DNA of 64,000 nucleotides, from NCBI GenBank assembly GCA_004335835.1, contig RWJK01001882.1, forward strand, positions 9,210 through 73,209, given 5' to 3'. The notes under the pieces were generated by a model. The model did not search any database. It saw only the letters and a program-made list of their open reading frames with translations, and was not told the origin of the DNA. Position 1 is the first letter of the stretch. Each line of letters starts with the position of its first letter. Source of the stretch: Scenedesmus sp. ARA3. Its lineage: Eukaryota > Chlorophyta > Chlorophyceae > Sphaeropleales > Scenedesmaceae. Below are positions 4,343 to 49,331 of the stretch, in pieces. A program made the position numbers and the translations under genes.

Positions 4343-4660
4343 TCAATCTGTTTCCATTGCAGCCTGACCAGCATCACCTCCAGCAGCAGCAGCCTCCTGC
4401 ACATTTACAGCGCAGCTGCTGCCAGCCGCCCCCGCCATCACCGCTGCCGCAACCTGCTCAGCCGCCGTAAAACCTACCCCAGGCTCTAAACCGCTGCCTG
4501 ATCCCTGAACCACGCCACCGCTGCCAGCTCCTGTCTTCCCTGCAGCATCACCAACCTCAATACCACCAGCAGCAGCGCAGCAATGTGAGGCGTGTGAGTT
4601 GCTGCTGCCAGTGAAGCTTAGAGACGTGCCGGCAGGGATGAACAGTGCAGTGCCTGCAAT

Positions 4661-4698
<38 letters not shown>

Positions 4699-5623
4699 GT
4701 GGGGCGTGTGTGCTGCTGCTGCCAGTGAAGCTGACGGACTCTCTGGAAGTACCTGCAAGGTTGAGCAGCGCAGTGCCTGCAGCAGCACCAGCAGCAACAA
4801 CTGTTGAACGTCTGTGTGCTGCATTGACAGTGAAGCTGATACGCGTGCCTGCAAGGATGATACAATGCATCTGGGTAATCCATTGCAGTTCTAGAATGGA
4901 CAAACGGTTTCAATCCCACATCATGTTTTGAACCACACCTGGGTGCAGCTCTGCTTTGATAACAGTAGCTTCATCTATCACCACGCCTGCATTCATGCAT
5001 GAGCTGAAGCTTCCACGCCTGAACCTTTTTGTAAAGTACCTCTCAAAGCACCTCTCAATCAAACACACACGAGCATATCAAGCCCACTTGGGTGCAGCTC
5101 TGCCTCATCAGCTGCCGTTCAAGAAGCAGTTGACGAGACAGAGCTGCACCCAGGTGAGCTCACCAGCCTTGACGCATGTCTTGTCACTCCAACCTGAACC
5201 TTCGGAGAGCCCTGAATCACGTGTACTATCAGTAAGCTCACCTGGGTGCAGCTCTGCCTCATCAACCGCCGCTTCATCCATCACCACTCCTGCCTTCACG
5301 CTGGCATGACCGTTGCCGCCTGTCACTAGCAGCAGACCAGGCCCAGGGTCCATCACCTGCAGCAGCAACAGCAGCAAGAGCAACAGCAGCAGCGGCAGCA
5401 GCAGCAGCAATTGTTGGAGAGCAGTACACAGCGCCACACATCACCAGCAGCAGCCCAGGCCCTGGGTCCATCACCTGCAGCAGCAGCAGCAGCAGCGGCA
5501 GCGGCAGCAGTAGCAGCAGTAGTAGTTGTTTGAGAACAGTACACAGCGCCACACATCACCAGCAGCAGCCCAGGCCCGGGGTTTATCACCTGCAGCAGGA
5601 TGTTGGAAATCAAACACAGCAGC

Positions 5624-5716
<93 letters not shown>

Positions 5717-8543: not shown

Positions 8544-8633
<90 letters not shown>

Positions 8634-11600
8634 GGCGGCAGCAGTGTCAGCTGTACTTGTGCTGGCAGCCTACATCATCAGCAAGACTCTGCTTCATTGT
8701 GCACACGTGAAGCAGTGCTCATGTGGAGGTGGCATGGCATAACATGCCGAGTCTGCAATGTTGTGCCATTACATGCAGGAGATCAGCGGGTGTTGGAATC
8801 ATGAGTTTCCCAAGTCCGCTGATGTCCCACATGCGATGCCAAACACCTGGATTGACCTGTTGCGTGTGTACAAGCACACATATGCATACGTTAGTTGACT
8901 GTTAACAGAGAAGCTTCAACAACATGCTTATGCTTTCTGTGACTGCCCGTCCCGCCCGGCAAATTGTGAAGGACTGACACCCACACATTCTGAACAAAAG
9001 CAGCATGAACAAACGAGCTTTCACAACATGTGGTATGCAAGCTATCTGGCAGCGCAACCACACTGCTCAGCTGGTGGAGGATATGCAGATGGGGCAAGCA
9101 AAACAACATTGACACGATTGCTTGCTTACAGACAAAAGACCTCATAAATTGACCTCTGTGGTGCCGAGTGTCCAGTCTTGTGCCATCGCATGCAGAAAGA
9201 TCAGCGGGTGTTGGAAACATGTCTTTCCCAAGTCCGCAGATGTCCCAAATGCAATGCCAGACACCTGGATTGACCTCTTGCGTGTGTACGAACACACATA
9301 TGCATACAATGATTAACTGTTGACAGCGAAGCTTCAACAGCATGCTAATGCTCTCCATGACTGCCCGTCCTGCCCGGCAATTTGTGGAGGGCCGACACCC
9401 ACACATTCTGAACGAAAAAAGCATGAACAAAACAGCTTTGACAACATAAGGTATGCAAGCAATCTGGCAGCGCAGGCACACCGCCCAGCTGGTGGAGGAT
9501 ATGCAGCTGGGGCATGCAAAACCACATTGAAACGATTGCTAGCTTATAGTAGTTTTGGTAAACAAAATTGGTACCATCGCATGCGAATTTGCTCTATAGA
9601 GATCTGCCTGACGATAAGCAAGCCTTGTTGCTTTGACACCGCAAGGCAGCCAGATGTACTGTTCAAAACGCCAGATACATTGACTGCAGCGATTTAAACC
9701 AGCGGCATGTCATGCACACATGGCAGGCTGGGGACAACAACAGCAACCAACACAAACCTATACAAGCACACCAGGACACCACACGGCTTACTGAGCAGCA
9801 TGCAGGTGCTGGTGCGCCGTCAACCTCCATAGAAGACGATGGCGCTTCAGCAGCAGCAAGCTGTTTCAGCAGTGCATCTTAACAGCGGTTCAACGCAACT
9901 AAGTGCATCTTTGCAAGTTGATGCTTAGGCAAATATGGCAAAAATCTGGCCCAGTGCCATGCGCAGGTTGTAGGCAGCTGATGCACGCAACATTCTTCAA
10001 GCATTCTCGAACGTGGCCGGCGGGTATCCATCTCCCCTGCAGGGTGCAAGTTGCTGAGAAAAAACAGTTGCTGAGCAGCCACAAGCTGTGCAGGCAACAC
10101 CAATAGCCTAGCTACTGCGCAGCATGCTGCTGCTCGGCATGCCCTGGATCCTTCAGAAAATCGAGCACACCAAGCAGCAGCAAGTTGTGCAGGCAGCATT
10201 AAATCTGCTGAAAAGCCTATTTCAGCGTGCCTTGATGTGGCTCGGCATGTGCAATTCTGGCAATGCATTATAAGCGGAGTAGGGGGGGACCCAGGTGCTG
10301 TACACAAAGTCTTCGCGCCAAAAAAGCAGCTCAGCACAGTTGTTGCATTGCAAGCCATGTGTCTTGCAACTGCGCAGCATGCTGGTGCTGGGCATTCCCT
10401 GACTCTTCTGGAATCAGAGCTGCGCTCAGCAGCGGCACGTTGTGCAGGCAGCCTAAACTTGGTACGCCAAATTCTGCAGTGCAATGATGTGTTGTCTTGA
10501 TGTCCGACATGGTGGAGTCCACCAGCAAGTGTGCTTCTAGCTATGTGCTTTTGGCTATGCAGTGCTAGTGCACTAGTGTGTTACGCGGGTGTAAATACAA
10601 AGCATCCAAAACATCCGATGGCAACACATCTGAGCACCACATAGCACACTGCCCAGCACGCTGTTGCTGGGTTGGCTGAACTCTTACAGCCCAGGCAGAT
10701 CCAGCATCAGCAAGCTGTGTAGGTGGCTTCAGCACGGCCAAATTGGTCAATTATACACTGCATTGGATGTGGTTTGGCATGTGTACATCCGGCTATGTGT
10801 TGCTAGTGGACTACCAACTGTGCAATCATCAACTCCCAGCACTCATATCAGGCGTAAATTGCAGCACATCTGAGCACCAAGGGCGTACTGCACAGCCAAG
10901 CAGCTGCTGAGTGCGCTCTGGTTTGTTATCCAACCACGACAACACTCAGCAGCAGCAAGCTGAGCAGGCAACAGCAGCACAGCGAAAACCGGTCCTTCTA
11001 GCGCGCATTGCCAGTGAACTTTTGCGACATGCAGGGCTTCACTAACTAGTGTTCAAAGAAAATATGGCGCAGCACCTTACAGCATCATGCCGCCACTGCG
11101 CAGCAACCTGCCGCTGGGTGGGCTAACACGTTGTTGTCAGAAGCTCCTCCAGCAGCAGCAAGTGCCCAAGCATCCAACAAACCAGCAACACAGCAATACA
11201 GCACATGCATGCACCACGTAGTGTACTGTACAGTGTGCTGCTGCTGGGCGCGACCTGATGATAGAACATCTACACTATCGCCCCCAGCAGCTGCACACTG
11301 TGCAGACAACTGCCAACACAGCGCAGGTTGACCTTGTAGTGCTCTAATGTGTCCCGGCATGTGGGCTTCTATCTGAGCATTGCTGGTGGACTACTGTGTG
11401 GCATGCAGGTGTGCTACACCAATCATTGGTTGAGGAAGCGTGTAATGTAACGTAATATATTGCAGCAATAAGCTTCACAGTGATTCTAAGCGCCATACTG
11501 TACAGCATGCTGCTGCTGCGTGAGCCCCATGCGCATTCTGCGGAAGAGTCACCGCGCATCAGCAGCAAGCTGGGCAGGCGGCGCTACACTGCATTTTTTT

Positions 11601-14600
11601 ACAATGATGAATCACGCACAGCAAGGGACAGGCAGCCACACTCTAGCGCCAACAGAAGGGCTAATGAAAGCTGAATGTAGATTGAGCGGCACAGGACTGC
11701 AGAAACAAGCGACTAGCATTCCACACAGCCATCCCCACCGCGCAGCGCACTGAGCACTGCGCAGCATGCTGCTGCTGGGTATGCTCTGGCTTCGTCAAAT
11801 CCACGAGGACCCACGCAGCAGGAGCAAGCCATGCAGGCAGTACTAACGAGACAACAGTCGTTTGCAGAGTACCGCCATATGGCTCATGATCAGCGTGTGT
11901 TCTTCTGACCACGCCTTGCTGGTGGACTGGTGTCCTTTGCTGGTATTGTACGCCGAGCACTTTTATTTTCTGGGAACACTGACACTACACAGCAACAACT
12001 GCGAGGGGTGATGCAGCTTGACACTGTGCAGCATGCTGCTGCTAGGTACCGCCTCACTCTTTGAGAAGCACGGCAGCCCCGGCAGCTGCAAGCTGTGCAG
12101 CTTAACACAGTGTCAAGTCAACCATGGAAAAAATTTACTGCCTGTTTCACGGCACGCGTAAGTAGGGCTGTGAACGCAGCATCATGTTTGCTCCTATATG
12201 TGCATCCTAGTTTACTAGTGCATCATGCAGGCATTGCCCTTGCAGTGCTTATCAAACCAACTGCACAATGATTTGTGCACCACGCAGCGTACTGTGGAGC
12301 GTTCTGCTGCTGGGCCGGGCATGAATTCATGACGATTTCATCCCCAATCCAGCAGCAACACACTGCACGGACAACGTCAACACAGCAAACATCGGTCCCA
12401 CGGTGCCCTGATGTGTCTTAGCATGCGTGCCTTTAGCTGAGCATTGCTGGTGGACCTGCGTGTTGTGCAGAAAGTGTACGCCAGGCATCTAGAAGCTAAA
12501 CAAAACAGCACCCTTGCAAGCCACGTGGTGCACTGCCCAGCACGCTGCTGCTGGCTGCACACCCTCGCCCTGCAAGGACGGAACGACGCCAGCAGCGGCA
12601 AGTTGTGCAGGCAGCACCAAGGTTTTAGCCACTGTGCAGCACGCTGCTGCTGCTTGTGTCTTGACCCTTGCGAGAGTAGACCATGCCAGCAGTGCCAAGC
12701 TGTGCTGGCAACATCAGCATCAACCTGAGCATGGGAAAGAAGAAGTTCTCAGAGTGCTCAATGCGCGACAGCCTGTATACCTCTAGCTCCTGCATTGCTA
12801 GTGGATTGGTGTGCTGTGTTGCTATCAGCAGGTCAAGCAGACAAAGAACAAGCTGAGCAGCGCAATCCAGCACCACTCGGCGTACTGCACAGCATGCTGC
12901 TGCTGGGGTGGCTCTCTCCCCGAGGAAGGGCAGGAGCACCCTAGCAGCGGGCAGTTGTGCAGGAAGCCTCAACATAGCAACAGCCAATTCCAGATGTGTT
13001 GATGTGTCTCAGCCTGTCTGCTGCTAGCTCTGCATTGTTAGCGGACTGGTATGCTGAGCAAATATTGTACATCAAGCAAACAAACAACGAGCAACGCAGC
13101 CCATCTGAGCAGCATGCGGCGTACTGCACAGCATGCTGCTGCTGGTAGAGTCCTCACCCTGTGGAGATCAAAAGCACCCCAGCAGCGGCAAGCTGTGCAG
13201 GCAGCCTCAACATAGCAGCAGCCGCTTCCAGACTTAGTTGGTGTGTCTCAACATGTTTGCTGCTCGCTCTGCAATGCTAGCGGACCGGCGTGTTGAGCAT
13301 ACACCACCACTCTAACAACGGGCGACGCAGTGCATCCAAGTAGCATACGGCGTACTGCGCAGCATGCTGCTGCTGGAGTGGCCTTGACCCTGTGGAAACC
13401 AAAAGCACCCCAGCAGCGGCAAGCTGTGCAGGCAGCATCAACACCATCAGCCTCAGCAAGGAAATAAGCAGTTCCTAGAGTGCCTTGCTGCGAGTCGCAC
13501 TTTGAAAATTTAAATCCCAGCTCTGCATTGCCGGTGGACTGATGTGCTATGCATGTATTACTGTGTTGTAAGTCAAAGCAATGTAAAACAAAGAGCTCGT
13601 GGTGTACTGCACAGCATGCTGCTGCTGGGCTGGCTCTCAGATTTTGCGGGTCTGAATCCTCCCCCAGCAGCGGCAAGCTGTGCAGTCAGCATCAACTCGG
13701 CAAACACTGGTTGCAGAGTGCCTTAGCTCAGCATGTGTGCTTCTAGAATTGCATTGCCAGTGGACTACAGTGTAATGAGGTTATTTGTCAAAAACTCACA
13801 CTTTGATCTTCTAGGATCACCACAGCCACACACCAGCACCTACGAGCGGTGCTGCAGATGTGTACTGCGCTGCATGCCGCTTTTGGGGGCGGCGTTGCCC
13901 CTCGACAGGCACGGCAGCCCGATTAGCAGCAAGCTGTGCAGCTAGGTGCGGCACTAAACAATCATGGCAAGCAGCGCAATCAATCTCGAGCAAATGCTTC
14001 TCAACATGTGTAGTCCCAGCTGCAATTTGCCATGGGACTAGTATCTGATGCAGGCGTGGCACGTTAAGCACACACATGTCAGTACCACCACACAGCTGAG
14101 CGGACGTACTGCGCAGCATGCTGCTGCTGGTTTTGGCTGCGACGTTGAAAGCATTCCTGCCAAAGTCCAGCAGAAGCAACCTGTGCAGGCAGCATCAATG
14201 TGGATCCGACACCAATCCTAAACCCTAAAAATCCTGCTACCTAACGACTGCGCAGCATGCTGCTGCTGCTGGATGCACCCCCACGCTGTGGGCTTCAGCG
14301 GGCAGGGCGGCCCAAGCAGCTGAAAGCTGTGACCGTTGAAATTTGATGTTGGCGCAACATACAGCATACTAGCCCACCAGGATGCACAGTTGGGAGCATG
14401 CATGCATGGGGTCGCCGGCGGCGCTTCTAAAGAATCAGCAACACATAACATGCGTGCACCACGGAGAGGAAGTTGCAGCATGCTGCTGCCGGGCGCAATT
14501 TGAAGCCGTCCGTAGATCAAGGCCGCCCCACCAGCCGCAAGTTGCGACAGTGTCAACACAGCGCAACTCCATCCACAGTGCTTTGATGTGTCCCAGCATG

Positions 14601-17600: not shown

Positions 17601-17641
17601 TCATCATCACCCCCTGCTAGCTGCTGCCGCATCCCGCCTTC

Positions 17642-17673
<32 letters not shown>

Positions 17674-33531: not shown

Positions 33532-33988
33532 GGTTGCGGCAGTGGGGTGTGTGGCGAGTGCGGTGTGCTGGCTTGTAAGGTGAAGGAAGCGTATGTGATT
33601 CGAATGCTGTTGGAATCAAAGACACTAAAACATTTGATGCGCGGTATGGCCATGCTGATACCCGCAGTGGCAGGTATGCCAACGACTAGGCTTTCGAAGC
33701 GCCAAAACCAGAGCGAAGGCCCAAAGGCAACTGCAAATCGGTTACATAACGGTGAATTGAACCCAATCAATAAGCTGTAGTGAATGCTACTAGGCGCGCT
33801 GCAGGCAGATGAGCATGGCCGGTGCCGGTGTGCAGCAGGTGAGCCATGTCAGTGCAGCCCCGGCCAGAAGGCGCGGTAAGCGTTGTGCTGCACAACTTGT
33901 GCAGCAAACAGTGTCGAGGCAGCTGTGGCAGACGTGTTGCTTTCTACACCTCCACAGTTCGTCTGCAGTTTATGTATTTCAAGCATGC

Positions 33989-34513: not shown

Positions 34514-34621
34514 TCCAACTCTGCATCAAGCCAGAGGGTGGCACAAGTATTAAGATCCACCTGAATTTCAAAAATGTCGAGTTTGTGATGAGTACAACAG
34601 GCCTGTCTGCAGCAGCTGATC

Positions 34622-35723
34622 ATGGCGCTTGCTGCACCGGTCGAGGAGGACTTCGGCTCAGACGAGCAGTTATCAAAGCAAGTGTTTCAGACGTATGAGT
34701 GCAAAAGCATTGGCAAGGGCAAACCCCATGCAGGCGACATCGCGGAGCCTTCTTCACTCAGGTGCTTGAGCAGCAGCAGCAGTACAGCAGGCTTGCATGG
34801 GCCCTGCATCTGTGCATGGCGTTTCCAGTCTACGTTTGTAACAATGGTATAACAGCATGTCTGCAATCAAGACTGCAAGCTCCGGCACACCCCATGGTGA
34901 AGCCAAGTGCTTGTGGTATTCTGCCCAGCAGTGACAATGCTGTGCATGCTATGCTGCTGGTAGCCCCACCTGCGTGCCCGTTTAACCACCAGATGGGCTT
35001 TTACGTTATATGGAGTCTATGTGTCCACGCTTGCTCGTCTGCCATCCTCTGCAGTGTTGCTGAACCGCCCAGCTTTCGTTCAACTGCTGCAACCATTCGC
35101 CAACCATTCACTCTGCTTCACTGCACCACCTGCCACTCCTGCAAACTCTCCTGCGAACGTTCCTGCAAACATTCCTGCAAACTTGTTCCTGCAGCGCGAT
35201 CCCGCTGCCTCCCTCAGACTATCCCCTGTGGGATTCCCTGCCGTTAGAGGTGGTTGAGCAGGGCAAGCTGAGCCAGCTGCAGCTGGAGGGCGTGCTGTAC
35301 GCCTGTAGCCGCCACCAGCAGATACTGCCCAGCGGCCAGCGGGCAGGCTTCTTCATTGGTGCGTGATTGTGGTGGCTTGGAGGGTGTACCAGCAGCAGCA
35401 GCAGCAGCAGCTTCCCTGGAGCTCTGCATGCATCAGCACACGTGCAGCAGGGCGGGAGTACTGGCAGCAGGATGCAGGATGATGGTTGCAGCAGTGCACA
35501 AGCCAGGCATGCGATGCTTTCCGTCGGCTGGTGCAGTGCAAACACGCGCAGCATGATGAACTGTGCCTGTCCTGCTGCGCTGCAGGTGATGGCGCTGGTG
35601 TGGGCAAGGGGCGTCAGATAGCAGGCGTCATCTTAGACAACTACATCAGGGGCAGGAGGTGTGCACAGGAGCGCTGGATGGGGCAGCAGCAGCTGTGCCA
35701 GCAGCATAGTGCTGTTGTTTTTC

Positions 35724-35782
<59 letters not shown>

Positions 35783-35832
35783 NNNNNNNNNNNNNNNNNN
35801 NNNNNNNNNNNNNNNNNNNNNNNNNNNNNNNN

Positions 35833-35894
<62 letters not shown>

Positions 35895-36659
35895 CTCGCA
35901 GGCGTAGCGCTGAAGCTGCTGGCCTGCAGACGCATCTGCTGCAGCAGCTTCCCGCGCATTAGATGTCAAGTGCCCTATCATTACCAGCCACCAGCTTATG
36001 GCCTTGTTCGAATGTATGCAATAGTACATCTATTTTTCAAACTGCACTGCAGGCGCCACTTGTGGCTGTCAACAAGCACTGACCTGCATGTGGATGCGGG
36101 GAGGGACTTGAGGGACCTTGGGGCACACATCCCGCTCATCAACGGCTGCGCGGGCCTGGACAGGGGCACGCGGGCCCTGGGGCTAGCGAAAGACCTGCAG
36201 GAAGGCGTGCTGTTCCTGTGAGTGTCGTGTATAGGGGTGTTGAAAATCTGTTTGAAATATGTAGCCTCTGTGATGTGCTTAGTCTGCTCAGGGCTGGACA
36301 GGGGCACACGGGCCCTGTGGCTTGCAAAAGACCTGCAGGAGGGAGTGCTGTTCCTGTGAGTGTTTGTTGCGTCACTGCTATGGTATTGCACACGTCTGCA
36401 GGCTGTGCCGGGCTGGACAGGGGCACACGCGCCCTTGGGCTGGCATATTGTTTGCGGGAGGGCGTGCTGTTCCTGTGAGTGCCATGCAACAACTGCAGAA
36501 CCTTGCAAAAATGCATGCCTGCAAGCAGCTGTTGGTAGCTCAGCAGCGGGGGCCGTGGGTTACAGGCGCGCTGCAGCATGACCTGGCACTGCTGCTTGCA
36601 TCCTCAACTGATGGTCCTGTCGTTTTGCTGCGTATGTTGACTTGCCGCTGCTGCTGCTG

Positions 36660-36690
<31 letters not shown>

Positions 36691-39600
36691 TTTGTGCTGC
36701 AGCACCTACTCCACACTCATTTCAGCAGGCAAGGGAGGCAGGAGCCGCATGGAGCAGGTGGGAAGGCTTGAAAGGGTTCTGATGGAAGAGTTGACAACGC
36801 GAGGCAGCCACGCATCTTTCATGTTGCGCAGCGCGATTGCAGCACATGTAATGGAACACGGGGCGTTCTGTACGTTCTGTGTCAGGCGTCAACGCTGGCC
36901 TGAGCTGCTGCCCTATTTTTGTGTGCTGTCTGTGCCCACAGGTGGTGGAGGGGCTGGTGGGAGGCACCAACAGCTCCGTGCAACTTGTGGTGTGGCCCAG
37001 TCAGACGTATTGTGAATAATAACATCTCAACAACATCAAACGTGCTGGCCCTATCATATGTGCTGTGCCACAGGAGGTGGAGTGGCTGTTAGGCGGCACC
37101 AACAGCTCTCCGCTAGTTGTGGGTCTGATGGCTATCTGACAACATGCCAAACTGTAACATGCTGGCTGCATCATGTGTGCTGTCTGTGCCACAGGTGGTG
37201 GAGTGGCTGGTGGGAGGCACCAACAGCTCCCCGCAGCCGCAGGCCGGCAGCAGCAAAGCCGGCGACACTGCTGCTGCTGCTGCCGCCGCTGGCGCTCAGG
37301 CCTGGGATGGGCTGATCGTGCTGGACGAGTGCCACAAGGCAAAGAACTTCACACCTGGAAAAGAAGCGCAGAGCACCAAGGTGAGCTGAGTGTGCGTCAC
37401 TGACATTGAATGGTACTTGTCACCGTAAGCAGTAGCCTGTTGGCAACAGCACCCCAGGCATCTTTGGCGGACAAGCACAGCCACGTTGTTTGCAACCGCA
37501 TCCACTCACGCAGTCTATAGCTTACAAGCCGCTGCTGCTGCTGCTGCTGCTGTTGCTGCCGCCAGGTGGCCTCTGCTGTCATTGACCTGCAGGCCATGCT
37601 GCCAAACGCGCGCGTGCTGTACTGCAGTGCCACGGGCGTGAGTGAGGTGAGGCAGAAGAGCGTGTTTCGACATGTTTTACCAGACCGCTGTCGCCAGTTG
37701 CTGTGGGTTTCTGCAGAAGAGAGCCAATCCACAGCTGTGTGAGGTCATGTTAAGACAGTTGCAAAACAGATAGAGTCTTGATCAGCAGCAGCTGCAAGCT
37801 TGAGCACATGCACAGCTAGTTTCTTTGCATCATGCCATACTTTGGTCCCTACATGCTACCCACCGTAATTTATGCTTCCGATGCGATTGTACTGGGCTGA
37901 TGCTGCTACTAGGTGCTTAGCCTGGTTTGTGAAGTGACAATGAGGGCATGCGTTGGCGTGCTTGTAGGTGGCCAACATGGCCTATATGGAGCGCATGGGC
38001 CTGTGGGGACCCGCCAGCCCCTTCCCAGACTTGTTATGCATCAAACACATGTGTCCATACGCTGTTTGTGACAATCCCAGGTGGCCAACATGGCCTACAT
38101 GGAGCGCATGAGCCTATGGGGACCTGCCAGCCTCTTCGCAGACTTGTTATTCATCAAACACCTGTGTCATATGCCGTTGATGATAACTGCAGGTGGCCAA
38201 CACCTCCTATATGGAGCGCATGGGCCTGTGGGGACCTGCCAGCCCCTTCTTGGACTTGTGACTCATTAAACACCTGTGTCATATGCTGTTTGTGACAACC
38301 GCAGGTCGCCAACATGGCGTACATGGAGCGCATGGGGCTTTGGGGACCTGCCAGCCCCTTCCCTGACTTCGCTGCTTTCTTGGAGAGCATGCGCAAGCGG
38401 GGTGTGAGCTTCATGGAGCTGCTTGCGATGGAGATGAAGGCGGCTGGACGCTATGTGGCTCGCGGGCTGAGCTTCAGGTGCTTTGGTTGAATGTTTGACC
38501 AGGTTGACCGAATGTCTGACTGATTGTTGATGTTCGTCCGTTGACGGTGAGCTCAGCTGCTGGCGATGGAGGTGAAGGCGCCTGGGCGCTATGTGGCGCG
38601 CGGGCTGAGCTTCAGGTGCTTCGACAAATTGTTTGACCAGGTTTGACTGGAGTTCTGCACAGCAAACGTGGCGCAGCACGATGAACAGTCGCCCTGTAGG
38701 ATGCTCACAACTTTGACATTGGCGTGCCTTCATGCTGCTCTGCAGGCAGGCACTTGCAAGTAGAAGCGCCCCTCAGCCCAGCCAAAGTGGCACAGTACGA
38801 CGCAGCAGTTGCTCATAATGTTTGTTTGCTGCCTGCCGCCATGCTGTCCTGCAGGCAGGCGGAGTTCCTGCAAGTAGAAGCGCCCCTCATCCCAGAGAAA
38901 GTGGCCCAGTATGATGCAGCAGTCGCGCTGTGGCAGAGCCTGCGCAGCAAGCTGGAGATGGCTCTGCAGCTGGCAGGCATAGACAAGCGGGACGTGTGGA
39001 AGACGTACTGGGCGGCGCAGCAGCGCTTCTTCAAGCTGCTGTGTGTGGGGCTGAAGCTGGACACAGTGATTGCAGAGGTACGCTGGAGGGCAGAGTTGGG
39101 CTGTAGGTGTCAAATGTTAGGATTGGGGCAGCGCAGCAGCGCTTCTTCAAGCTGCTGTGTGTGGGGCTGAAGCTGGACACGGTCATCGCAGAGGTGCGCG
39201 CTGTCGGGCCGGGTTTAGTTGTTAGGTGTGGGGTGTGGGTGGCGCAGCTGTGGTTCTATAAACTGCTGTGTGTGGGGCTGAAGCTGGACACGGTCATTGC
39301 AGAGGTGCGCTGGAGGGCAGAGTTGGGCTGTACGCTTCAGATGTTTGGGATTGGACTGCGGTGGCGCAGCAGCGCTTCTTCAAGCTGCTGTGTGTGGGGC
39401 TGAAGCTGGACACAGTCATTGCAGAGGTAAGCGTTTGGAGACCAAGTCGTTGAAGTGCTTGCATTGAGCTGCGTTCGTGCAGCAAGCAGGTTGACAGCAA
39501 CCCATGTGGCGTTCCGCCGTGCTGTTTTGTGTTGCCATGCCTATACAGCGGTCGTCTCTTTCCAAGAGCAGCAGCACTAGCTGTCATGCACATAATAGTC

Positions 39601-40875
39601 TTTGTGGGCACAGCCATGAACTTTTGGCCTAATCATCACACCTCACATGCGTGACTCTTCCTTTGCAACTTCTTCTGCTCAATCATCCTCTGTTGCTTTG
39701 TCATGCTGCTGCCCGCAAACAGGCCAAGGCAGCGCTGGCGTCTGGCATGTGCATGGTCATCGGGCTGCAACAAACACATACCTGTCCTCCTGTGTCTTGC
39801 TCAAATGTTGCGTTCTGCAATCACCTGTTGTCATGCAGGCCAAGGCAGCGCTGGCATCGGGCATGTGCATGGTCATCGGGCTGCAGAGCACTGGCGGATC
39901 ATGCTTGTCGGTTTCCGTGCACACAGCCCAAAGCTGCGCATGATCTCCATCTTTCCTCTTCCTCTTCTGCTGAACTGCCTTCTCTTGCTTGGATGGTGTT
40001 TCCTGCAAATGTATGCAGGCCAAGGCAGCGCTAGCGTCAGGCATGTGCGTTGTCATAGGCCTGCAGAGCACCGGCGAGGCAGCAGCAGATGCAATGGGGC
40101 TGGAGCCAGGCCCCTTGCCTGGCTTTGTGAGCCCCTGCAAGGAGATGCTGCTGCGCTTCATACAGCTCAACTTCCCAGAGCATGCGGCGCAGTCGCCTGA
40201 AGGTGGGCGTTGAGGCTGTTGCTTGTGTCTGCTGCTCAGTGAACGGGGCGCAGCCGGATATGCCTGCATGCTTGTTGTTTTGCTGTTGCTTTGTGTGGCA
40301 TTGCAAGGAGATGCTGCTGAGGTGGATTCAGCTGAATGTCCCAGAGCATGCCGCTCAGTTGCCTGAAGGTGGGCAGTGTGGATGGCTACTAGCTGAACTT
40401 CCTGCAGCAGCCTGCACGTGTCCCGCCTGCTAGGACACTGCGACAACGCACGCGTCCTGTGCATTCCCATATGCTGGTTATGTCCTGCATAATCATGTTC
40501 CCGTCCGTCTGCAGCTGCAGCGATGGGCCTGCAGCCTGAGGCCATCCCCGCCTGCCGCGCCATGAAGCAGCAGCTGCTGGCGCAGCACGCCTCTCTCAAC
40601 CCACCACAAAGTATCTTGGCGCAGCTGACATGCCACACACGCTGTGCTTCTTTCCTGTCTGCTTATGTCCCGGCTGTCTGCAGCTGCAGCAATGGGGCTG
40701 CAGCCAGAAGCCATCCCCGCCTGCCGTGCCATGAAGCAGCAGCTGCTGGCGCAGCTTGCCCAGCTCGACCTGCCGCCCAACTTCCTGGACCAGTTGATCG
40801 ATGAGCTGGGAGGGCCGAGCATCGTTGCAGAGATGACTGGGCGCAAGGGCCGCGTGGTGCGCGAGCAGCGCAAAG

Positions 40876-40912
<37 letters not shown>

Positions 40913-43900
40913 GCTGAGTCAGCGCGTGGTGTATGAGCTGCGGGCTAAGCCGGACAGCAGCGAGATGGACTCACTCAACGGTGAGGCTGTTTGGTTGCCT
41001 CAGTGCTGATGGCTCGAAGTGCAGCATGTGTTGAGGTTGATAGTGTGCGTGTGCTGGTGGCCGCCTTCGTTTTACCGCATCCAATTCTCCTGCAAGCTCC
41101 ACAAGTCAAACGCATGCACCTACCTGCCTGCAAGTGGCTGCCAGTGTCCCTATTGCACTATGCAGCCACATAGGGCTACGTGTGCGTGTTTACTGTCACC
41201 TATTCTTTTGCAACCAGGACGCAACCCAGCAGCATACACCCGTTCATGAATCTCCTCCACCACCCAACCACCTGCTTCCGTGTGTGCGCGTTGCTTTCTC
41301 CCAAATAGCACTTCTCCCCTCATCGATGTATGCTTGGCCTCCACCAACCATGCATATTTGCCTTCATTGTTGCCGCTGCTAGTTACGGAGAGGGAGGCTT
41401 TCCTGTCAGGCAAGAAGCGTGTGGCGCTCATCAGCGATGCAGCAAGCACCGGCATCTCGCTGCACGCAGCAGCAACAGCAGCCAACCGCAGCCAGCGGCG
41501 GCTGCACCTCACCATAGAGCTGCCTTGGAGTGCTGACAAGGCCATTCAGCAGCTTGGCCGCAGCCACAGAACAAACCAGGTGCGACAATGCTGCTTTTTT
41601 TGCGCTCTCATGAGTTTTGCCTGGTTTGTACACATCTTCATGCACCTGCACCGCACAAATGAGCTGCCCTTATAGCAACCGGGGCGCAGTCACAACCAAC
41701 CAGGTGCACTGCGTCACCAGTGCAGGTTTTGTTGCAACTTCCCACACAAGCCAGTCATGCCTGCTCTCCAAGGGTGAGGCGGTCATTGCAATGCTGCTGG
41801 CTGTGGTGTACCACACCACACTCACGCCAATGTGGCTGCATCACGTGCTTGCTCAACTGCAGGTGTCAGCACCGCTCTACAAGCTGGTGGTGTCTGCTGC
41901 TGGCGGCGAGCGGCGCTTTGCTGCAGCAGTGGCAAGGCGGCTGCAAAGCTTGGGGGCCCTGACGCGCGGCGACAGGCGCGCAGCAGCGGGTGGGTGGTCG
42001 CTGCTACACATACTGAACACTCCAGCTCTGCTGCTTGACTCATTTGTACTTGCCAGGCATGTATGCCGCATCTGGGTGAATGGTTGGTGGGATGCATGAA
42101 GTCAACGCCGCTGCAAACATTGGTGTTGCTGCTGCTGTCTTTGTGATGTGCAGGCGTTGACCTTTCAGACTCAAACTTTGACACCCCGTGGGGCCGCAAG
42201 AGCCTGCGCAAGATGTATGATGCCATAGTCACAGAGTCCCCTCAGCTGCCCAGCGGAGTGACAGTCTCTGCCCTGCTAAAGGACCTCCTGGTGTTTCCTG
42301 CAAGCGGTGCCGCTCAAACAGCAGCAGCAGCCGCCACAGATCAAGCTGCAGCTGCTGCGGATGTCAATGCGACGCTGCAACAAGAGGAGACAGCACGGCT
42401 GCTGCAGCAGCAGCTGCCGGCGCTGTCAGCCCTGCAACGCCTCGCAGCAGCAGAGGCCGCGGCAGCAGCGAAAGCTGCAGCAGCTGCCGCTGCAAAGGCT
42501 GCTGCTGGCCAGTCACCTGCCAAGTCAGCAGCAGCAGCACCTGCAGCAGCTGCTGCAGCAGAGGAGGCGATGCTGGTGGCTGCTTTGACTGGCAAGGCGC
42601 CGCCGCCTGCAGCTGCAGCAGCGTTCATGACGCCTGCTCAAGTTGGGGCTGCAATTGCGGAGCTTCACAGGGAGCTGCGGGGCTGCTGTGACATGATGGG
42701 CATTGGGCTCAGCGGTCGCAGTAACGACAGCGTGGTTGAGGTGAGTGCACTTGATGTGCTACGTCTCAAGTCACGCGTCACAGGTGGCTCAAGTTGGGGC
42801 TGCAATAGCAGAGCTGCACAGGGAGCTGCAGGGCTGCTGTGACATGATGGGCATAGGGCTAAGTGGGCGCAGTAACGATAGCGTGGTTGAGGTGAGCACG
42901 TGCGTTTTGTGTCCTGGACTGCACTGAGTAGTAGCCATGGGCTTTTGGCTCAATCCTGCAGCAACGACAGCTCAGTTGAGGTGAGTGTGTGTGTGTGTGT
43001 TATGTGTCCTAAGCTGTATTGAACAGACATACCATGTCGCCCGCTTTAGCCACTTGAGTTGGGGATGCGATTGCGGAGCTTCACAGGGAGCTGCGCGGTT
43101 GCTGCAACATGATGGGCATTGGGCTCAGCGGTCGCAGCAATGACAGCGTGGTTGAAGTGAGAATGCGACACATGCTGGGCCAAAAGGGACCGTCTTTGCG
43201 ACAGTTGGTGTGCATACACGTGCGATAGACTCACACTTTGCATGTTGCACAGACATCAGCGGGTGGCACGGCCTGCGTACAGCACCCCTCGCTTTTTGGG
43301 TTATACGCAGTGACTCATCTCAGCTGTTGGCGCCAAGCACTGCACATCTGATCAAGCCGCCCACTCCCCTCGCAGAGTAGTGTCAGCAGCTAAGGATGCA
43401 ACCACAGCAGCATCCTGTTTCTGTGCGCTGCCAAGCTTTATGAATAACTCATTCCTCAAACGTGCTGCTGCTTGCAGGACCGCATCAAGGACACCGTGTC
43501 AGCAGCAGCCAAGGACGCCAACGCAGCAGCAGCGCCGGGCGCAAAGGACCTGGGCGATGTGCGCCGCTTCCTCAACAGGCTGCTGGGGCTGCCGCTGGGC
43601 CGCCAGAACCTGCTCTTCAACTACTTTGCGGCAACACTGGCGGCTGAGATCGCTGCTGCACGCGCTGAGGGCAGGTGTGCTTGCTCGGCAGTTATCTGGA
43701 GATCCCGGCCACTGTGATCAGCTTGTTCATCGTTTGAAGACACATGCGTTCAACCCTGAACTTCACTTGGCGCTGCTGCCGCCCGCACACACATGTGTCC
43801 AACCCTGAACTTCACTTCGTGCTGCTGCCGCTGCTGCTGTTTCGGTTGCGCAGGTACACCGAGGGCGTGAGTGATATCCAAGGCAGCAGCATCAGCCTGG

Positions 43901-45979
43901 CAAGGCCCCCGCAGCTGCTGCGGCCGACCCTAATCCTTAGCTACTGCTGCTGCTGCCGCCGCTGCCGCACACTGTGCAGGTACACTGAGGGCGTGAGTGA
44001 CATCCAAGGCAGCAGCATCAGCTTGGCGCGGCCCCCGCAACTGCTGTGGGGCGCCGCCAGCGGCGGCAGCGAGGCTGGCGCGGCGGCGCAGACATGGGTC
44101 AACACGCTGCAGGTGGATCGGGGCATGACCTTTGAGGTGAGCGGCAACAACACATCTGGGCATTGTGATGTGATTCCGCATATTGTCATTCAGACTGTTG
44201 CATCAGCATACCTGGTTTGGCTGCACTACAGTGGAGCAATGTTGTGGATTGTTTAGTGTAATAGGTGGTAGCGGCAGCGAGGCGGGCGCGGCGGCGCAGA
44301 CGTGGGTGAACACACTGCAGGTAGACCGGGGCATGACCTTTGAGGTGAGCGGCAACAACACATCTGGGCATTGTGATGTGATTCCGCATATTGTCATTCT
44401 GACTGTTGCTCCAGCACACCTGGTCGGCTACGCTGAAGTGGAGCATTGTGTGCAGCTGTAAACTTGGCAATTATATGTGGTAGCGGCAGCGAGGCGGGCG
44501 CGGTGGCGCAGACTTGGGTCAACACGCTGCAGGTAGATCGGGGCATTACCTTTGAGGTGAGCGGCGGCGGCGGCTAGTCCTTGACCGCAGCAACATTGAT
44601 GTTGAACGCTGATACGGTGCACTTTGCTGCCCAAGTCTCCTTCTGCCACTGCTGCTTTAGATATATTCAGCCTAGTCTGTGGCGCATTGCAGAGCACGGC
44701 ACTGTGACTGTTCATGTTGTGCCATTTCTTACTGCAGCATGCTGCTGCGCCGCCACCATCCTGCCCCGGCTGCCTGAGCGGCTTCACTTCTGTGCAACTC
44801 CTTGGCAAGCAGACCTCTATCAACTGTCTGTGCTGCATTGCTTTGTTCTTGCAGGATGCTGCGCGCCGCCTGGCGCACGAGTCATTCCCTGGCTGCCTGA
44901 GTGGGTTCCGTCGCAGCAGGCGGCCCATGTTTGGGTCTCACCTGGTGCTGCTGGCGCTGCAGAAGCCTGGCCAGAAGCACTTGTTCAGCCTTGTGAGACC
45001 AAACACAGGTAGGCGGGGCTGACGGTTGTGGAGGGTGATAGGTTGTCAAACAGTGATAATGGCAGTACTTTTGTTGAGTTTTTTTGGCTGTGTTTTGTGT
45101 TTTAAGCTGTTGGTATTTGGCCCATGTTTGGCAGCAACTTGGTGCTGCTGGCGCTGCAAAAGCCAGGGCAGAAGCACCTCTTCAGCCTCGTGCGGCCAAA
45201 CACAGGTGCGAGCGCCCAGGCTGTTGGCAGCACTTGAGTGTGATTGGATTGAGAGCAACAGCCTTGTTTTGTGTTATTGTGGGGTTCTGGTGCATGTTTG
45301 GGTCCCTCTAGGTGCTGCTGGCGCTGCAGAAGCCTGGCCAGAAGCACCGCTTCAGCGTGGTGCGGCCCAACACAGGTGCGAGCGGCCAAGCTATTGGCAG
45401 TACTTGGGTGTGATTAGATTGAAAGCAATAGCCTTGTTTTGTGGTATTGTGGGATTTTTGTGCGTGTTTGGGTCTCACCTGGTGCTGCTGACGCTGCAGA
45501 GCCTGGCCAAAAGCTCCTGTTCAGCCTCGTGAGACTAAACACAGGTGCGTAGTTGGGATGCCTGTGGTGTCCTTGTTACCAACCCATCTGGGGAAGCAGC
45601 CCACTTGCTGCCCTGCCCCAGCTGGACTTCTGATCCGACCTGCTGTTGCTGCTTGCTGCTGCAGCACGGCAGGCGAGGCCTTCTAGACATGACACGCATT
45701 GAGTGGGATGATTAGCACATGTACGCCCATTGCTGAATGCAGTGCAGCTGATCCCCCTGCTCTTGCTGCTGCTGCTGCTGCTTCTGTGCTGCAGGCGAGG
45801 CCTTTTATGACATGAAGCGGGGCGACCTTGATGAGAAGTACGTGCTATATCTTATGCCTTTCTTGTTGCTGCTGCTGCTGCTGCCATTTCACAAACTTTG
45901 TGCACGGCAGGCGAGGCATTTTATGCCATGGAACAGGGCGAGCTGGATGAGAAATACGTGCTATATCTTATGCCTGTCA

Positions 45980-46014
<35 letters not shown>

Positions 46015-46238
46015 ATTCACAAACAACACGGCAGGCGAGGCCTTTGATGACATGGAACGTGGCGAGCTGGACGAAAAATACGTGCGGCTGGCGCCAGAGG
46101 CAGCACAGGAAGATTGCGCTGACTGACTACGTCTGATGTGCTGCTGCCATTTATGTTGTTACATTGCAGGCGAGGCGTTTTATGACATGGAGCGCGGCGA
46201 GCTTGATGAGAAGTACGTGCTACATCTTATGCCATTCA

Positions 46239-46285
<47 letters not shown>

Positions 46286-47555
46286 TTTCACAAACTTTGT
46301 GCCGGCAGGCGAGGCCTTCTACGACATGGAGCGGGGCGAGCTTGATGAGAAGTATGTGCGGCTGGCGCCGAAGGCTGCGCAGGAGGAGTGGGCGGCACAG
46401 CACGCCGCCAGCCTGGGCAGCTGCATCCACGGCGCTGCCTGCGCCAGCAAAGCCACGTGCCAGGTGAATGCTGTGAATGCTGTGATACAAACGAGCCAGT
46501 GAGGGTTGGTGGTTCTGGGGATCATCTGAGGATGGTATGAGCCGTTACGAGCTGCGTTTGAGATGGTGGTGTTTGGTTTGGCAGGCGATGACTGTGTAAA
46601 CCAGCATGTGATTGGGTGTGTTGTCGCCAGCCTCAGTAGCTGCATCTTTGGTGCCGCCTGCGCCAGCAGAGCCACCTGCCAGGTGAGGGCAGTGTGGTGC
46701 AGAGCATGTGTGGTATGTATGGTAATATGATGCGGCCAGCCTGGGCAGTTGCATCCATGGCGCTGCCTGCGCCAGCAGAGCCACATGCCAGGTGAATGCT
46801 GTGAATGCTGTGATACGAAAGAGCAATGGGTTGGTGGTCTGGGGATCATCTGAGGATGGTATGAGCCGTTACGAGCTGCGTTTGAGTTGGTAGTGTGTGG
46901 TTTGGCAGGCAATGACTGTGTAAACCAGCATGTGATTGGGTGCGTTGTCGCCAGCCTCAGCAGCTGCATCCACGGCGCCGCCTGCGCCAGCAAAGCCGCG
47001 TGCCAGGCGAGCGCGGTGTGGTGCAGAGCATGTGTGGTACGTGCGGTAATATGATGCGGCCACCTGGGCAGCTGCATCCACGACGCCGCCTGCGCCAGCA
47101 GAGCCACATGCCAGGTGAGTGCTCTGTTGATACAGCGAGGTTGTTGGTGGTCGAGAGTGGAATTGCCGCCAGCCTCGGCAGCTGCGTCAACGCAGCCGCT
47201 TGCGCCAGCAAAGCCACCTGCCAGGTGAGTGCGGTGTGCTCCATAGCCTGCAGGTCTGTACGGATTGTTTGTTGCAAGAGCTGCATAAATAGTAGTGTAA
47301 CATACTTCCAGCAGCGGCAGCTGCATTCAAATCCGCCTTGCCGCACTTGGCATTGTTTTTGCTGAGCTCTGACGCTCCTGCCCTTGCTGACATGCGTGCT
47401 GCCACTGCCAGGTGGGTCGCCGCCTGACTGAGGTGACCATTCTGTCCGGCAGCGTGGTGCGCGTTTGGGGGGTGCTGGAGTCAGTGCTGGAGCGGCGCTC
47501 GCGCGAGCTGCATAACAAGGCAGACAGGACAATGCGCGTGGTGCGCGTCACACTG

Positions 47556-47605
<50 letters not shown>

Positions 47606-47700
47606 ACGGCAGCAGCAGCAGCAGCAAGGGGAACATCAGGCGAAATATCAGCAGCAGCAAGAACAGCAGCAGGAGGCGGCAGATGGTGCAGGGCAGCAAG

Positions 47701-47759
<59 letters not shown>

Positions 47760-48718
47760 CCTGAAGCAGCTGTCAAGGCCGCCAGTCCTGCAAAAGCTGC
47801 TGCTGCAGCTGCTGGTGAAGAGCGCACGATAGTAGGTGTGCGCTACCCTGCCATGCTGCTGCCAGAAGTTGTGGCCACGCTAGCCTCTTTGCACAACAGC
47901 AGTAGCACAAGCCTGCAGGGCCTGCAGCAGCAGTCCCTGCATGCTCTTTGGAGCCAGCAGCAGCAGCAACAGCAAGCGAGTCAGCAGCAGCCGCTGCACA
48001 TGAGTGGCTGGTGGGTAGCAGGCGTAGACAAGCAGCAGCTGGCAGCAGCTGCTGCTGGCAAAGCAGCAGCAGGTAGCTGTGGCAGCAGCAAAGCGTCACT
48101 AACAGAGGCCTTGGGCATTGCCCGGATAGAGCCGCCAACCCCAGTAGATAAGAAGCTGCAGGCGAAAGCCTTCAGGGCTCCCCAGACTCTACATAACTAC
48201 TTTCTAAGCAACGGGGCAGCAGCAGCAACTGGAGGCAGCAGTACGCCAGAGCATGCTGCTTCTGATGGAGGGGCTGTTTTTGGTAGTGCAGCTACCAGTG
48301 CCAAGCAGGCTGCAGCAGCAGCAGCAGCGATGCCGGGGCGGTCAGCATCAGCGCCTGCAGCTGTTGCAGCACGTAACAGCAGCGGCAGCAAGGGCAATGC
48401 AGCAGCAGCTGGCGCTGCAGCAGCTGCAAAGAGAGGTGGCAGCGCCTCATGCCTTGACAGCTTCTTCAAGCGGCCAGCTGCAGGAGCAGCAGCAGCAGCG
48501 TTAGCAGCAGGCACTGGCAAGGGCCAGCAGCAGCATGGGGGGCAGCAGCTGCCGCCAGCCAAGAAGCAGCGTGTCCAACCACCGCAGCAGCGGCAGCAGC
48601 AGCAGCAGCCAATCAAGTGCGACTCGTCCTCTGTTATACTGATTGACAGTGACACGGAGTGCGATGACAAATCAGTAGGCGTCGAAGGCTTCGATGCAGA
48701 AGACGCAGACACCGTTGG

Positions 48719-48750
<32 letters not shown>

Positions 48751-49331
48751 GTGCTGCTTCGGATGTGGGCGCTGCCAACAGCTGCGGGGTGAACAGCAAG
48801 CGCAGCAGCAAAAGCGATGCGTACTCCAAGCAGCAGCCGCAGCCCAGCAAGCGGCAGCGGCGAGCAGCAGCAGCAGCAATGGGCAATGGCAGCAGCAGAG
48901 GTGCTGCTGGGCAGTTTGAAACAGCAGATGGCTGGGCTGAGTCTGATGATGATGTGGAAGCAGGTCAAGGTGTTGATGCTGATGATGCTGACTCAGACTT
49001 TGACCCAGCAGAAGAGGCTGCAGGATCGTTTTCTGCTGCTGCAGGCGCACAGCGAGTGCCGACCCAGCAGCAGCGGCAGCAGCAGCAAGCCAGCTGTGCA
49101 GCAGGGAAGCCAACAGCAGCAGTTGCAGCCAAGCCGCGCAGTGCTGCTGGATCTGCTGCTGGTGCTGGCAGCTGGTTCAGTACAGCGAAGAAGCAGCAGC
49201 AGCAGTCTCAGGCTGAGAAGCTGCAGCTGCTGCATGGCATGGGCTTCACTGGTGCCAGGGCTGAGAGGGCACTGTGGGTCAGCAAAGGAGACGTGGACAG
49301 GGCCATAGAGTGGTGCCTGTCGTCTGCATGA
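34622..49331 (+). CDS. SBNO: Strawberry notch / FORGETTER1-like DExD/H helicase-family protein, 19 exons
   Basis: Nuclear chromatin-associated coregulator family; the Arabidopsis member acts in heat-stress memory (family knowledge). Exons: 34622-34761, 35195-35358, 35586-35658, 36053-36217, 36703-36757, 37195-37380, 37566-37646, 38305-38477, 38855-39077, 40019-40202, 40684-40980, 41383-41579, 41863-41989, 42154-42740, 43478-43674, 43980-44136, 44855-45008, 46309-46463, 47412-49331. All phases join to a 1744-residue frame. Motifs: Walker [11 protein letters not shown] (102-111), DECH (243-246), YCSATG motif [23 protein letters not shown] (motif V region), [11 protein letters not shown] (636-646), [15 protein letters not shown], and a Cys cluster [14 protein letters not shown] long Gln/Ala/Ser-rich tail then ends in a UBA-like segment (about 1709-1744: MGF, RAL, AIEWCL). 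The N terminus is short relative to plant homologues. Most internal exons are flanked by decoy copies of their own splice junctions. Confidence 0.93.
35137..35194 (+). repeat. short TCCTGCRAAC repeats before the SBNO exon-2 acceptor
   Basis: Four or five 11-14-bp units of TCCTGC-AAC lead directly into TTCCTGCAG, the exon-2 acceptor. This may be a miniature version of the acceptor-echo arrays. Confidence 0.6.
35727..35892 (+). repeat. (CAG)n tract containing an assembly gap
   Basis: CAG triplets run on both sides of 50 undetermined bases (35783-35832). It lies in SBNO intron 3 with CAG in the sense strand, whereas most acceptor-proximal tracts here are CTG in sense. The true length is unknown. 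Confidence 0.95.
36218..36480 (+). repeat. two tail copies of SBNO exon 4
   Basis: The exon-4 tail ([21 protein letters not shown]) and GTGAGT donor recur with ends at 36355 and 36474; the true end is 36217. Steps are 138 and 119 bp. The last copy encodes variant residues ([10 protein letters not shown]). Confidence 0.92.
36942..37194 (+). repeat. two head copies of SBNO exon 6
   Basis: CCACAG/GTGGTGGAG...GGAGGCACCAACAGCTC recurs with starts at 36942 and 37074, before the true start at 37195 (steps 132 and 121 bp). Upstream intron sequence (CAAACGTGCTGGCC-like) is duplicated with each head. Confidence 0.92.
37968..38304 (+). repeat. three head copies of SBNO exon 8
   Basis: Acceptor plus the head coding [18 protein letters not shown] starts at 37968, 38081 and 38193, then the true exon at 38305. 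Steps are 113, 112 and 112 bp, almost perfectly regular. Splicing into the first copy and reading on reaches a stop within the second copy. Confidence 0.96.
38550..38615 (+). repeat. tail copy of SBNO exon 8
   Basis: Repeats the tail ([19 protein letters not shown]) with the same unusual GTGCTT donor, ending at 38615, 138 bp after the true end at 38477. Confidence 0.9.
38746..38854 (+). repeat. head copy of SBNO exon 9
   Basis: TCTGCAG/GCAGGC... followed by GTAGAAGCGCCCCTC repeats the exon-9 head from 38746, 109 bp before the true start, with a 7-bp internal deletion. Confidence 0.88.
39130..39426 (+). repeat. three tail copies of SBNO exon 9
   Basis: The tail coding [18 protein letters not shown] plus a donor (GTGCGC, GTGCGC, GTAAGC) ends at 39193, 39304 and 39426; the true end is 39077. 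Steps are 116, 111 and 122 bp. Confidence 0.95.
39723..40018 (+). repeat. two head copies of SBNO exon 10
   Basis: GCAG/GCCAAGGCAGCGCTGGC... coding [16 protein letters not shown] starts at 39723 and 39839, before the true start at 40019. Confidence 0.93.
40305..40368 (+). repeat. tail copy of SBNO exon 10
   Basis: Repeats the tail coding [21 protein letters not shown] and a GTGGGC donor, ending at 40368, 166 bp after the true end. Confidence 0.9.
40515..40610 (+). repeat. head copy of SBNO exon 11
   Basis: GTCTGCAG/CTGCAGCGATGGGCCTGCAG... coding [20 protein letters not shown], 169 bp before the true start at 40684. Confidence 0.93.
41683..41703 (+). repeat. short tail copy of SBNO exon 12
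   Basis: GCAGTCACAACCAACCAG/GTGCAC echoes the motif-VI exon end (GCAGCCACAGAACAAACCAG/GTGCGA), 124 bp downstream. Confidence 0.7.
42781..43156 (+). repeat. three tail copies of SBNO exon 14
   Basis: The tail coding [20 protein letters not shown]...SNDSVVE with donor ends at 42891, 42980 (short) and 43156; the true end is 42740. The copy ending at 42891 contains over 100 bp of exon sequence. Confidence 0.93.
43375..43415 (+). repeat. degenerate head copy of SBNO exon 15
   Basis: CGCAG followed by GTGTCAGCAGCTAAGGATGC resembles the exon-15 head with an internal deletion, about 103 bp before the true start. Confidence 0.65.
43854..43979 (+). repeat. head copy of SBNO exon 16
   Basis: GCGCAG/GTACACCGAGGGCGTGAGTG... 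through CCGCAGCTGCTG repeats ~70 bp of exon head, 126 bp before the true start at 43980. Confidence 0.94.
44137..44556 (+). repeat. two ~210-bp tail copies of SBNO exon 16
   Basis: The exon tail ([20 protein letters not shown]) plus donor ends at 44344 and 44556; the true end is 44136. Steps are 208 and 212 bp. Each unit includes the following ~110 bp of intron (GTGAGCGGCAACAACACATC...), so exon tail and intron head were copied together. Confidence 0.95.
44738..44800 (+). repeat. degenerate head copy of SBNO exon 17
   Basis: CTGCAG/CATGCTGCTGCGCCGCC...GGCTGCCTGAGCGG matches the exon-17 head with small indels, 117 bp before the true start. Confidence 0.75.
45119..45544 (+). repeat. three tail copies of SBNO exon 17
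   Basis: The tail coding [20 protein letters not shown] with ACACAG/GTGCG ends at 45205, 45375 and 45544; the true end is 45008. Steps are 197, 170 and 169 bp. Flanking intron is included in the unit. Confidence 0.95.
45673..46308 (+). repeat. array of five SBNO exon-18 head copies
   Basis: GGCAG/GCGAGGCCTT... (coding [16 protein letters not shown] in the true exon) starts at 45673, 45795, 45911, 46035 and 46170 before the true start at 46309. Steps are 122, 116, 124, 135 and 139 bp. Several units also contain a CTG run and the CATTTCACAAACTTTGTG element just before the acceptor. Confidence 0.97.
46242..46283 (+). repeat. (CTG)n run before the SBNO exon-18 acceptor
   Basis: About 14 CTG triplets in the last echo unit. 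Shorter runs sit at the same place in preceding units (near 45868 and 45980), so the triplet length varies between sister copies. Confidence 0.9.
46464..47224 (+). repeat. array of five SBNO exon-18 tail copies with higher-order structure
   Basis: The tail coding the Cys cluster ([17 protein letters not shown]) plus donor ends at 46682, 46791, 47006, 47114 and 47224; the true end is 46463. Steps are 219, 109, 215, 108 and 110 bp. The alternating long and short steps reflect a ~325-bp two-copy block (46464-46791 and 46792-47114) that was itself duplicated. The copy ending at 47006 has GC in place of GT. Confidence 0.95.
47561..47750 (+). repeat. coding CAG runs (poly-Gln) in SBNO exon 19
   Basis: Two long CAG stretches (about 47561-47602 and 47708-47748) code poly-Gln within the low-complexity tail. 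They remain in frame, unlike the intronic runs. Confidence 0.9.

Follow-up and report, generated by a model that had tools for sequence, protein, structure and literature searches.

Why the introns of a gene should carry repeated copies of the edges of its own exons, and where such copies could have come from, is a question raised by a 64,000-nucleotide stretch of contig RWJK01001882.1 (bases 9210–73209; contig 1464 of the assembly) from Scenedesmus sp. ARA3 (hereafter, the window). A preliminary description of the window had pointed to two genes, a minus-strand PMI-like gene and a plus-strand SBNO gene, in which diverged copies of exon boundaries lay in the adjacent introns. Such copies are called echoes here; an echo lies outside the intact exon and repeats approximately 35–110 bp of its head or tail, together with the splice site and part of the adjoining intron. 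In SBNO, every repeat family had a copy at an exon edge, and echoes differed from their exons mainly at third codon positions. The explanation favoured below, with a probability of roughly 45%, is that echoes are the edges of other, diverged alleles that were joined to the gene by exon-anchored unequal exchange.

Exon-edge echoes in the SBNO gene

SBNO was recognized by its Pfam domains AAA_34 and Helicase_C_4, which matched in three frames between approximately 35.2 and 43.7 kb, and by a UBA domain close to its end. The gene model spans 35217–49331 (5' exons upstream of 35217 were left out) and comprises 18 exons and 17 GT-AG introns in a single continuous frame. Using Pfam matches and a splice model, exons 1–6 were placed at 35217–35358, 35586–35658, 36053–36217, 36703–36757, 37195–37380 and 37566–37646; exons 7–12 at 38305–38477, 38855–39077, 40019–40202, 40684–40980, 41383–41579 and 41863–41989; and exons 13–18 at 42154–42740, 43478–43674, 43980–44136, 44855–45008, 46309–46463 and 47412–49331, all on the plus strand.

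The preliminary description supposed that the innermost splice sites are the ones used. A predicted Tetradesmus obliquus protein (P0001), identical to the SBNO product at 935 of 938 aligned residues, contained all 17 innermost junctions. A protein from a transcript assembly (P0002), 81% identical across 77% of the SBNO query, contained junctions 1–9 and departed after them, which we read as retention of intron 10. Therefore, proteins of related strains indicated indirectly that the innermost sites are those used in SBNO, and that the mRNA is unchanged.

When SBNO was compared with itself, each of the 15 repeat families had a copy spanning an exon edge and none was purely intronic; one family had an additional, stray match of 31 bp within exon 5. 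A sensitive scan of the 34 SBNO edges identified 36 echoes at 16 of them, so that the two-sided copying first described was borne out. All 20 tail echoes lay downstream, with GT in 19 and GC in the other, and all 16 head echoes lay upstream with AG, so that the decoy sites inferred in the preliminary description were intact. At least one echo accompanied 10 of the 16 internal exons. Distances were without frame preference (11 of 36 were multiples of 3). Repeat steps were commonest at approximately 108–139 bp, with others up to approximately 220 bp. The exon-internal ends of echoes were sharp, and were often common to the units of one array.

Combined self-comparison and edge scanning located two tail echoes of exon 3 (36144–36481), two head echoes of exon 5 (36920–37234), one tail echo of exon 7 (38417–38643), one head echo (38722–38926) and three tail echoes (39007–39432) of exon 8, two head echoes (39671–40076) and one tail echo (40122–40374) of exon 9, one head echo of exon 10 (40499–40755), three tail echoes of exon 13 (42636–43161), one head echo (43820–44049) and two tail echoes (44063–44565) of exon 15, three tail echoes of exon 16 (44922–45549), and five head echoes (45667–46393) and five tail echoes (46404–47250) of exon 17; all are on the plus strand. 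Exon 7 was also preceded by three head echoes with one exon-internal breakpoint in common (37963–38369), and exon 16 by one weak head echo, seen in the edge scan only (44678–44914; junction at 44738, outer limits approximate). The first tail unit of exon 15 was a mosaic, in which third-position differences adjoined approximately 70 identical bases that continued past the end of the exon into the intron.

The length of SBNO introns tracked the number of echoes, being approximately 250 bp plus 133 bp for each echo (r = 0.97, 17 introns); the mean was 276 bp for introns without echoes and 672 bp for introns with them. This agreed with the earlier suggestion of intron growth. The restriction to exon edges was greater than uniform placement would predict. 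If placement is crudely modelled as uniform over the positions where a copy would be tolerated, the probability that all 15 families fall at an edge is approximately 10^-7.5 for introns of their present length and 10^-3.6 for introns of half that length, both values ignoring the easier detection of exon-containing pairs, in which one partner is conserved. The polarity of echoes, taken alone, is nothing special, because it is a matter of geometry: where a tandem copy of an exon edge is tolerated, it necessarily falls outside the exon, carries the splice site with it and can occupy no other side. The side rule, the intact innermost exon, the breakpoints and spacers common within arrays, and the relation between echo number and intron length also speak for tandem duplication in place across exon-intron edges, with neutral drift of the outer copies thereafter.

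Echoes in other genes

Exon cores were anchored by Pfam in kinase, ABC and DEAD-box loci and in two chaperonin genes of the genome assembly (87.3 Mb, 1567 contigs). The 98 anchored cores comprised 85 loci and 13 chaperonin matches picked by the analyst, Pfam matches without a locus being left out; anchored cores may stop short of exon ends, and the loci include some that overlap one another and a few that are possibly non-algal. In this sample, 80 echoes flanked 28 of the 98 cores. The echo layout is non-random and extends past the genes first named. Among 103 exons or cores of at least 120 bp, a head copy was found upstream in 17 and a tail copy downstream in 30, while the six remaining combinations of part, side and strand produced no copies, which upheld the described polarity.

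The CCT-epsilon locus (L089) had 13 repeat families, of which 10 overlapped anchored exons. PDB matches put two further families at exons that Pfam had missed, that at 3096–3542 on a weak match, and the family at 5279–5406 was located where an exon is expected, with no exon match. At locus L090, 6 of 10 families overlapped anchored exons and the other four lay where exons are expected, again with no exon match. The largest number of units occurred at locus L071, in an array of nine head echoes; the six longest differed from the exon at 4–6 of 30–31 third positions and at 0–2 of 60–62 others. At locus L057 (C612), the whole of a 96-bp ABC-domain exon core was copied 255 bp upstream in gene orientation, with 3, 2 and 16 differences at codon positions 1, 2 and 3 respectively; this is possibly a complete exon duplicate.

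The PMI-like gene was the weaker of the two named examples and was weakly confirmed. Within the window, two partial matches to PF20511 reached its cut-off at most (approximately 24058–23957 and 21407–21333); a whole-genome search with this profile gave three matches, all of them outside the window on a different contig. The exon core at 24058–23957, the PMI identity of which is weak, was followed on the minus strand by a clean tail echo at 23896–23835 (23835–24058 in all). A cupin-like exon core at 15386–15312, based on a weak Cupin_2 match, had a downstream copy by self-match at 15160–15109 (15109–15386 in all, minus strand), but this copy repeated the front and middle of the exon, not the tail, and fitted the side rule imperfectly. 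A Pfam profile search of 4.3–15 kb identified nothing as PMI, the sole weak Cupin_2 match falling at approximately 15.3 kb. Self-matches of pure triplet repeat on this side of the window were set aside. One clean tail echo stood from the original example, with a weak gene identity and an irregular second copy. Contig 1001 carries a further PMI type I gene of more compact build (22993–23814), in which PF20511 matched three exons.

Codon positions of exon-echo differences

Echo counts vary with span and threshold: SBNO contributed 33 echoes to the codon analysis, as against 36 in the junction scan, while 115 echoes entered the indel analysis and 117 echoes in 52 families the family sampling. Between SBNO exons and their 33 echoes, differences affected 5.7, 3.9 and 23.9% of codon positions 1, 2 and 3; the corresponding values for the 80 echoes of other genes were 5.9, 4.5 and 18.3%. 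Synonymous and nonsynonymous divergence was 0.34 and 0.041 for SBNO, and 0.25 and 0.044 for other genes. The third-position excess held inside each base class, and third-position hypermutability and CpG decay were rejected for this reason.

These values bear directly on duplication in place. By our argument, a copy made within one genome leaves one partner non-coding, such that differences at positions 1 and 2 should each reach at least about half of those at the third, and no more than about half of all differences should occur at position 3. When one random echo was taken per family (52 families), the median was 233 of 358 differences at position 3 (median p = 6e-9 where one half is expected), and the worst of 200 such draws was still significant (p = 3e-5). 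Of the 48 families that had four or more differences, position 3 exceeded positions 1 and 2 together in 38, fell below them in 7 and tied in 3. Within-genome copying followed by drift is disfavoured because the third-position share exceeds one half, unless synonymous sites of exons change at several times the rate of introns. The original proposal of tandem duplication across the boundary holds for the spanning layout, but simple copying in place and drift does not account for differences that are mostly synonymous. It remains the main rival, if an unlikely one, and fits young arrays; the equal differences across codon positions that neutral decay should produce, once silent changes of the exon itself are allowed for, were absent except in a few cases such as the L089:29467 array and the PMI echo.

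Echoes also differed from one another in this way. The 46 echo pairs (of 127) that passed a spacer filter differed at 8.9, 6.0 and 19.7% of codon positions 1, 2 and 3 and at 17.9% of spacer sites; for all 127 pairs the values were 9.1, 7.0, 23.1 and 22.5%. When echo pairs were binned, divergence of the exonic part was uncoupled from that of the spacer.

Decay and relations among copies

Of 39 indels in the exonic parts of 115 echoes, 36 shifted the frame. Selection on echoes as coding sequence was rejected accordingly, and the third-position bias is not due to present selection, since frameshifts accumulate freely. It is very improbable, then, that echoes are functional coding segments such as alternative half-exons; the coding-type differences and the conservation of GT and AG would suit such a role, but not the frameshifts, the distances without frame preference, or the fact that the halves of several SBNO exons fail to sum to a whole exon. 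Cassette or mutually exclusive exons would be complete, with acceptor, donor and an open frame; in SBNO each copy is half an exon with a single splice site, and echoes contain frameshifts. The whole-core copy at L057 is an exception. Duplication in place, for its part, would accommodate the frameshifts.

Calibration against spacers (42 indels per 232 substitutions) suggested approximately 0.026 neutral changes per site since echoes became non-coding, and changes found in single echoes at the first two codon positions pointed to a value of up to approximately 0.044. Under either calibration, most of the third-position difference predates the non-coding state.

Among the 32 families that have two or more echoes, private changes at positions 1, 2 and 3 numbered 7, 2 and 36 for the exon and 79, 70 and 184 for echoes, with 14, 7 and 65 changes common to at least two echoes. 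A three-way comparison in 29 families gave unique changes of 6, 4 and 42 for the exon, 31, 24 and 52 for the nearer echo, and 30, 31 and 109 for the farther echo. These relations look star-like; they fit a similar third-position load in each lineage, with unbiased decay added in echoes. This shape was used to evaluate a further alternative, in which exonic synonymous sites outpace intron DNA by a wide margin and each echo is a snapshot from a different time in the exon's history. Such a process would uncouple the exonic part from the spacer and keep changes at positions 1 and 2 low, and it is consistent with the changes private to the exon (7, 2 and 36). However, snapshots should form one line, and the nearer echo has a significant third-position excess of its own (p = 0.0008), while in L071 the exon falls between echoes. 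We know of no mechanism for such a difference in rate, and this alternative is considered improbable.

Gene conversion between exon and echo in one genome was rejected on a rate argument, as it predicts nonsynonymous divergence of at least about half the synonymous value. A two-parent hybrid alone was also rejected; exon 13 and two of its echoes were mutually distant at third positions, and more than two lineages seem to be needed.

Repeats in the window and the assembly

Self-comparison of the window, with triplet repeats masked, produced 178 direct matches, of which 157 were spaced by less than 2 kb, and 10 inverted matches; duplication here is chiefly local and direct. Low complexity was rejected as the source of matches, which persisted after masking. 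Runs of (CAG)n/(GCA)n are abundant in both coding and non-coding sequence (e.g., 35724–35892).

An assembly artefact, in which diverged haplotypes or strains in the sample were falsely duplicated, would produce adjacent copies resembling working alleles, and single-base indels could then be sequence error; heterozygosity is a recognised cause of false duplication in the available part of PMC9516828. Against this, the false heterotype duplication treated there differs from echoes, which adjoin one another without gaps: the window contains one N run (35783–35832, within a CAG repeat) and the 299,105 bases of the 90-locus set contain another. Furthermore, arrays comprise up to nine units, with one breakpoint for many units, which is unexpected from independent mis-joins. 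The chance that echoes are artefactual therefore appears small.

Other repeats were observed in the window. At 57917–58923, tandem repeats of approximately 93–96 bp lie within one long open frame and represent in-frame protein repeats; they belong to a region (approximately 49.7–62 kb) with several members of a repeat-protein gene family, the repeats of which are in-frame, unlike intronic echoes. A gene of this kind was uninformative as a gauge of strain divergence, its best T. obliquus match being just 46% identical. Dense units of approximately 38 bp, nested in longer units of approximately 177 bp, occur at 31869–32634 and are tied to no known exon. Many diverged direct repeats, spaced by up to approximately 1.8 kb, occur on the PMI side at 10108–14899 and 16006–18838. 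A search of other genomes' contigs for DNA of relatives gave two bacterial matches alone, which were of no use.

A possible allelic origin for echo arrays

If echoes are alleles, the introns of this T. obliquus-like alga would lengthen through arrays of partial exons, most of which would have diverged in separate genomes while they were still working exons, instead of decaying in place as duplicates. In favour of this reading are the codon-position pattern, the frameshifts in echoes, the star-like relations, the uncoupling of exonic and spacer divergence, the exon 15 mosaic and the edge placement of all 15 SBNO families; the allelic source, the exchange and the past diversity are inferences from these observations. 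Unequal or illegitimate exchange between homologous chromosomes could set allelic exon edges side by side, and recombination inside the conserved exonic part would then multiply and reshuffle the units. A past population or hybrid would be implied, in which alleles differed at roughly 14–20% of third codon positions. Homologous introns may have been too divergent to pair, making exons the sole anchor of exchange, and arrays would consequently form at exon edges. Copies landing inside exons would be purged, and splicing at the innermost sites would keep the mRNA unaltered. Duplication in place may found arrays that exchange enlarges later. We tentatively suggest, as a wider possibility, that the arrays at exon edges amount to a fossil record of alleles across the whole genome: each unequal event would push the former working edge into the intron and install another allele; introns would grow in steps of approximately 130 bp and retain past synonymous variation beside affected exons.

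Several observations count against an allelic source. No second allele was seen, and P0001, which comes from another T. obliquus record, is nearly identical to the SBNO product, so that a diverse pool of alleles must be past, unsampled or hybrid; the diversity implied would be extreme for one species. Units with a common breakpoint and spacer differ at third positions, which requires conversion besides exchange. A gradient of decay toward the breakpoint, as expected from crossing over, was looked for and not seen. Finally, six tail echoes of L089:29467 were nearly unbiased (5, 2 and 5 differences in 90, 90 and 94 sites), these being young, and the PMI tail echo showed little third-position bias (3, 0 and 2 differences); such weak bias is what duplication in place would leave.

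In tandem arrays, unequal crossing over together with gene conversion produces copy-number growth, mosaics and common breakpoints; here, by contrast, one unit is a working exon and the differences are of coding type. Internal gene duplication, reportedly described by Gao and Lynch in 2009, is alike in being partial and within a gene, but echoes are confined to exon edges and diverge as alleles do. No description of exon-edge echo arrays appeared among the papers listed by searches of open-access literature aimed at them, and the word 'intron' was absent from the accessible portion of PMC12571836. The model of Rogers (1989), in which introns originate by tandem genomic duplication, is described in the accessible sections of PMC4974935, which also mention an 83-bp tandem duplication within an existing intron. 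As presented there, tandem exon-intron copies likewise leave the mRNA intact; in this genome, however, existing introns lengthen and no new intron arises between two copies of an AGGT segment, SBNO introns ending at the innermost edges with echoes internal to them, while arrays reach nine units, affect many genes and differ mainly at silent sites. Introners, as portrayed in the part of PMC9860276 available, resemble echoes in the repeated growth of intron DNA over many genes, but they are dispersed among unrelated genes, whereas window repeats are local, each array matching its own exon; a 404-bp echo array had a single genomic location among the matches listed in a whole-genome search.

In the portion of PMC5966456 available, introns average 462 bp in T. 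obliquus and 230–302 bp in four other algae, which is consistent with intron growth in this lineage. A single countable unit accounts for approximately 93% of the variance in SBNO intron length, making such growth measurable stepwise. Beside exons, the arrays create dense fields of intact decoy splice sites that the spliceosome has to pass over. Should the copies prove to be old alleles, a sample of past diversity would be readable from a single haploid genome, and the arrays would record where divergent homologs could still recombine.

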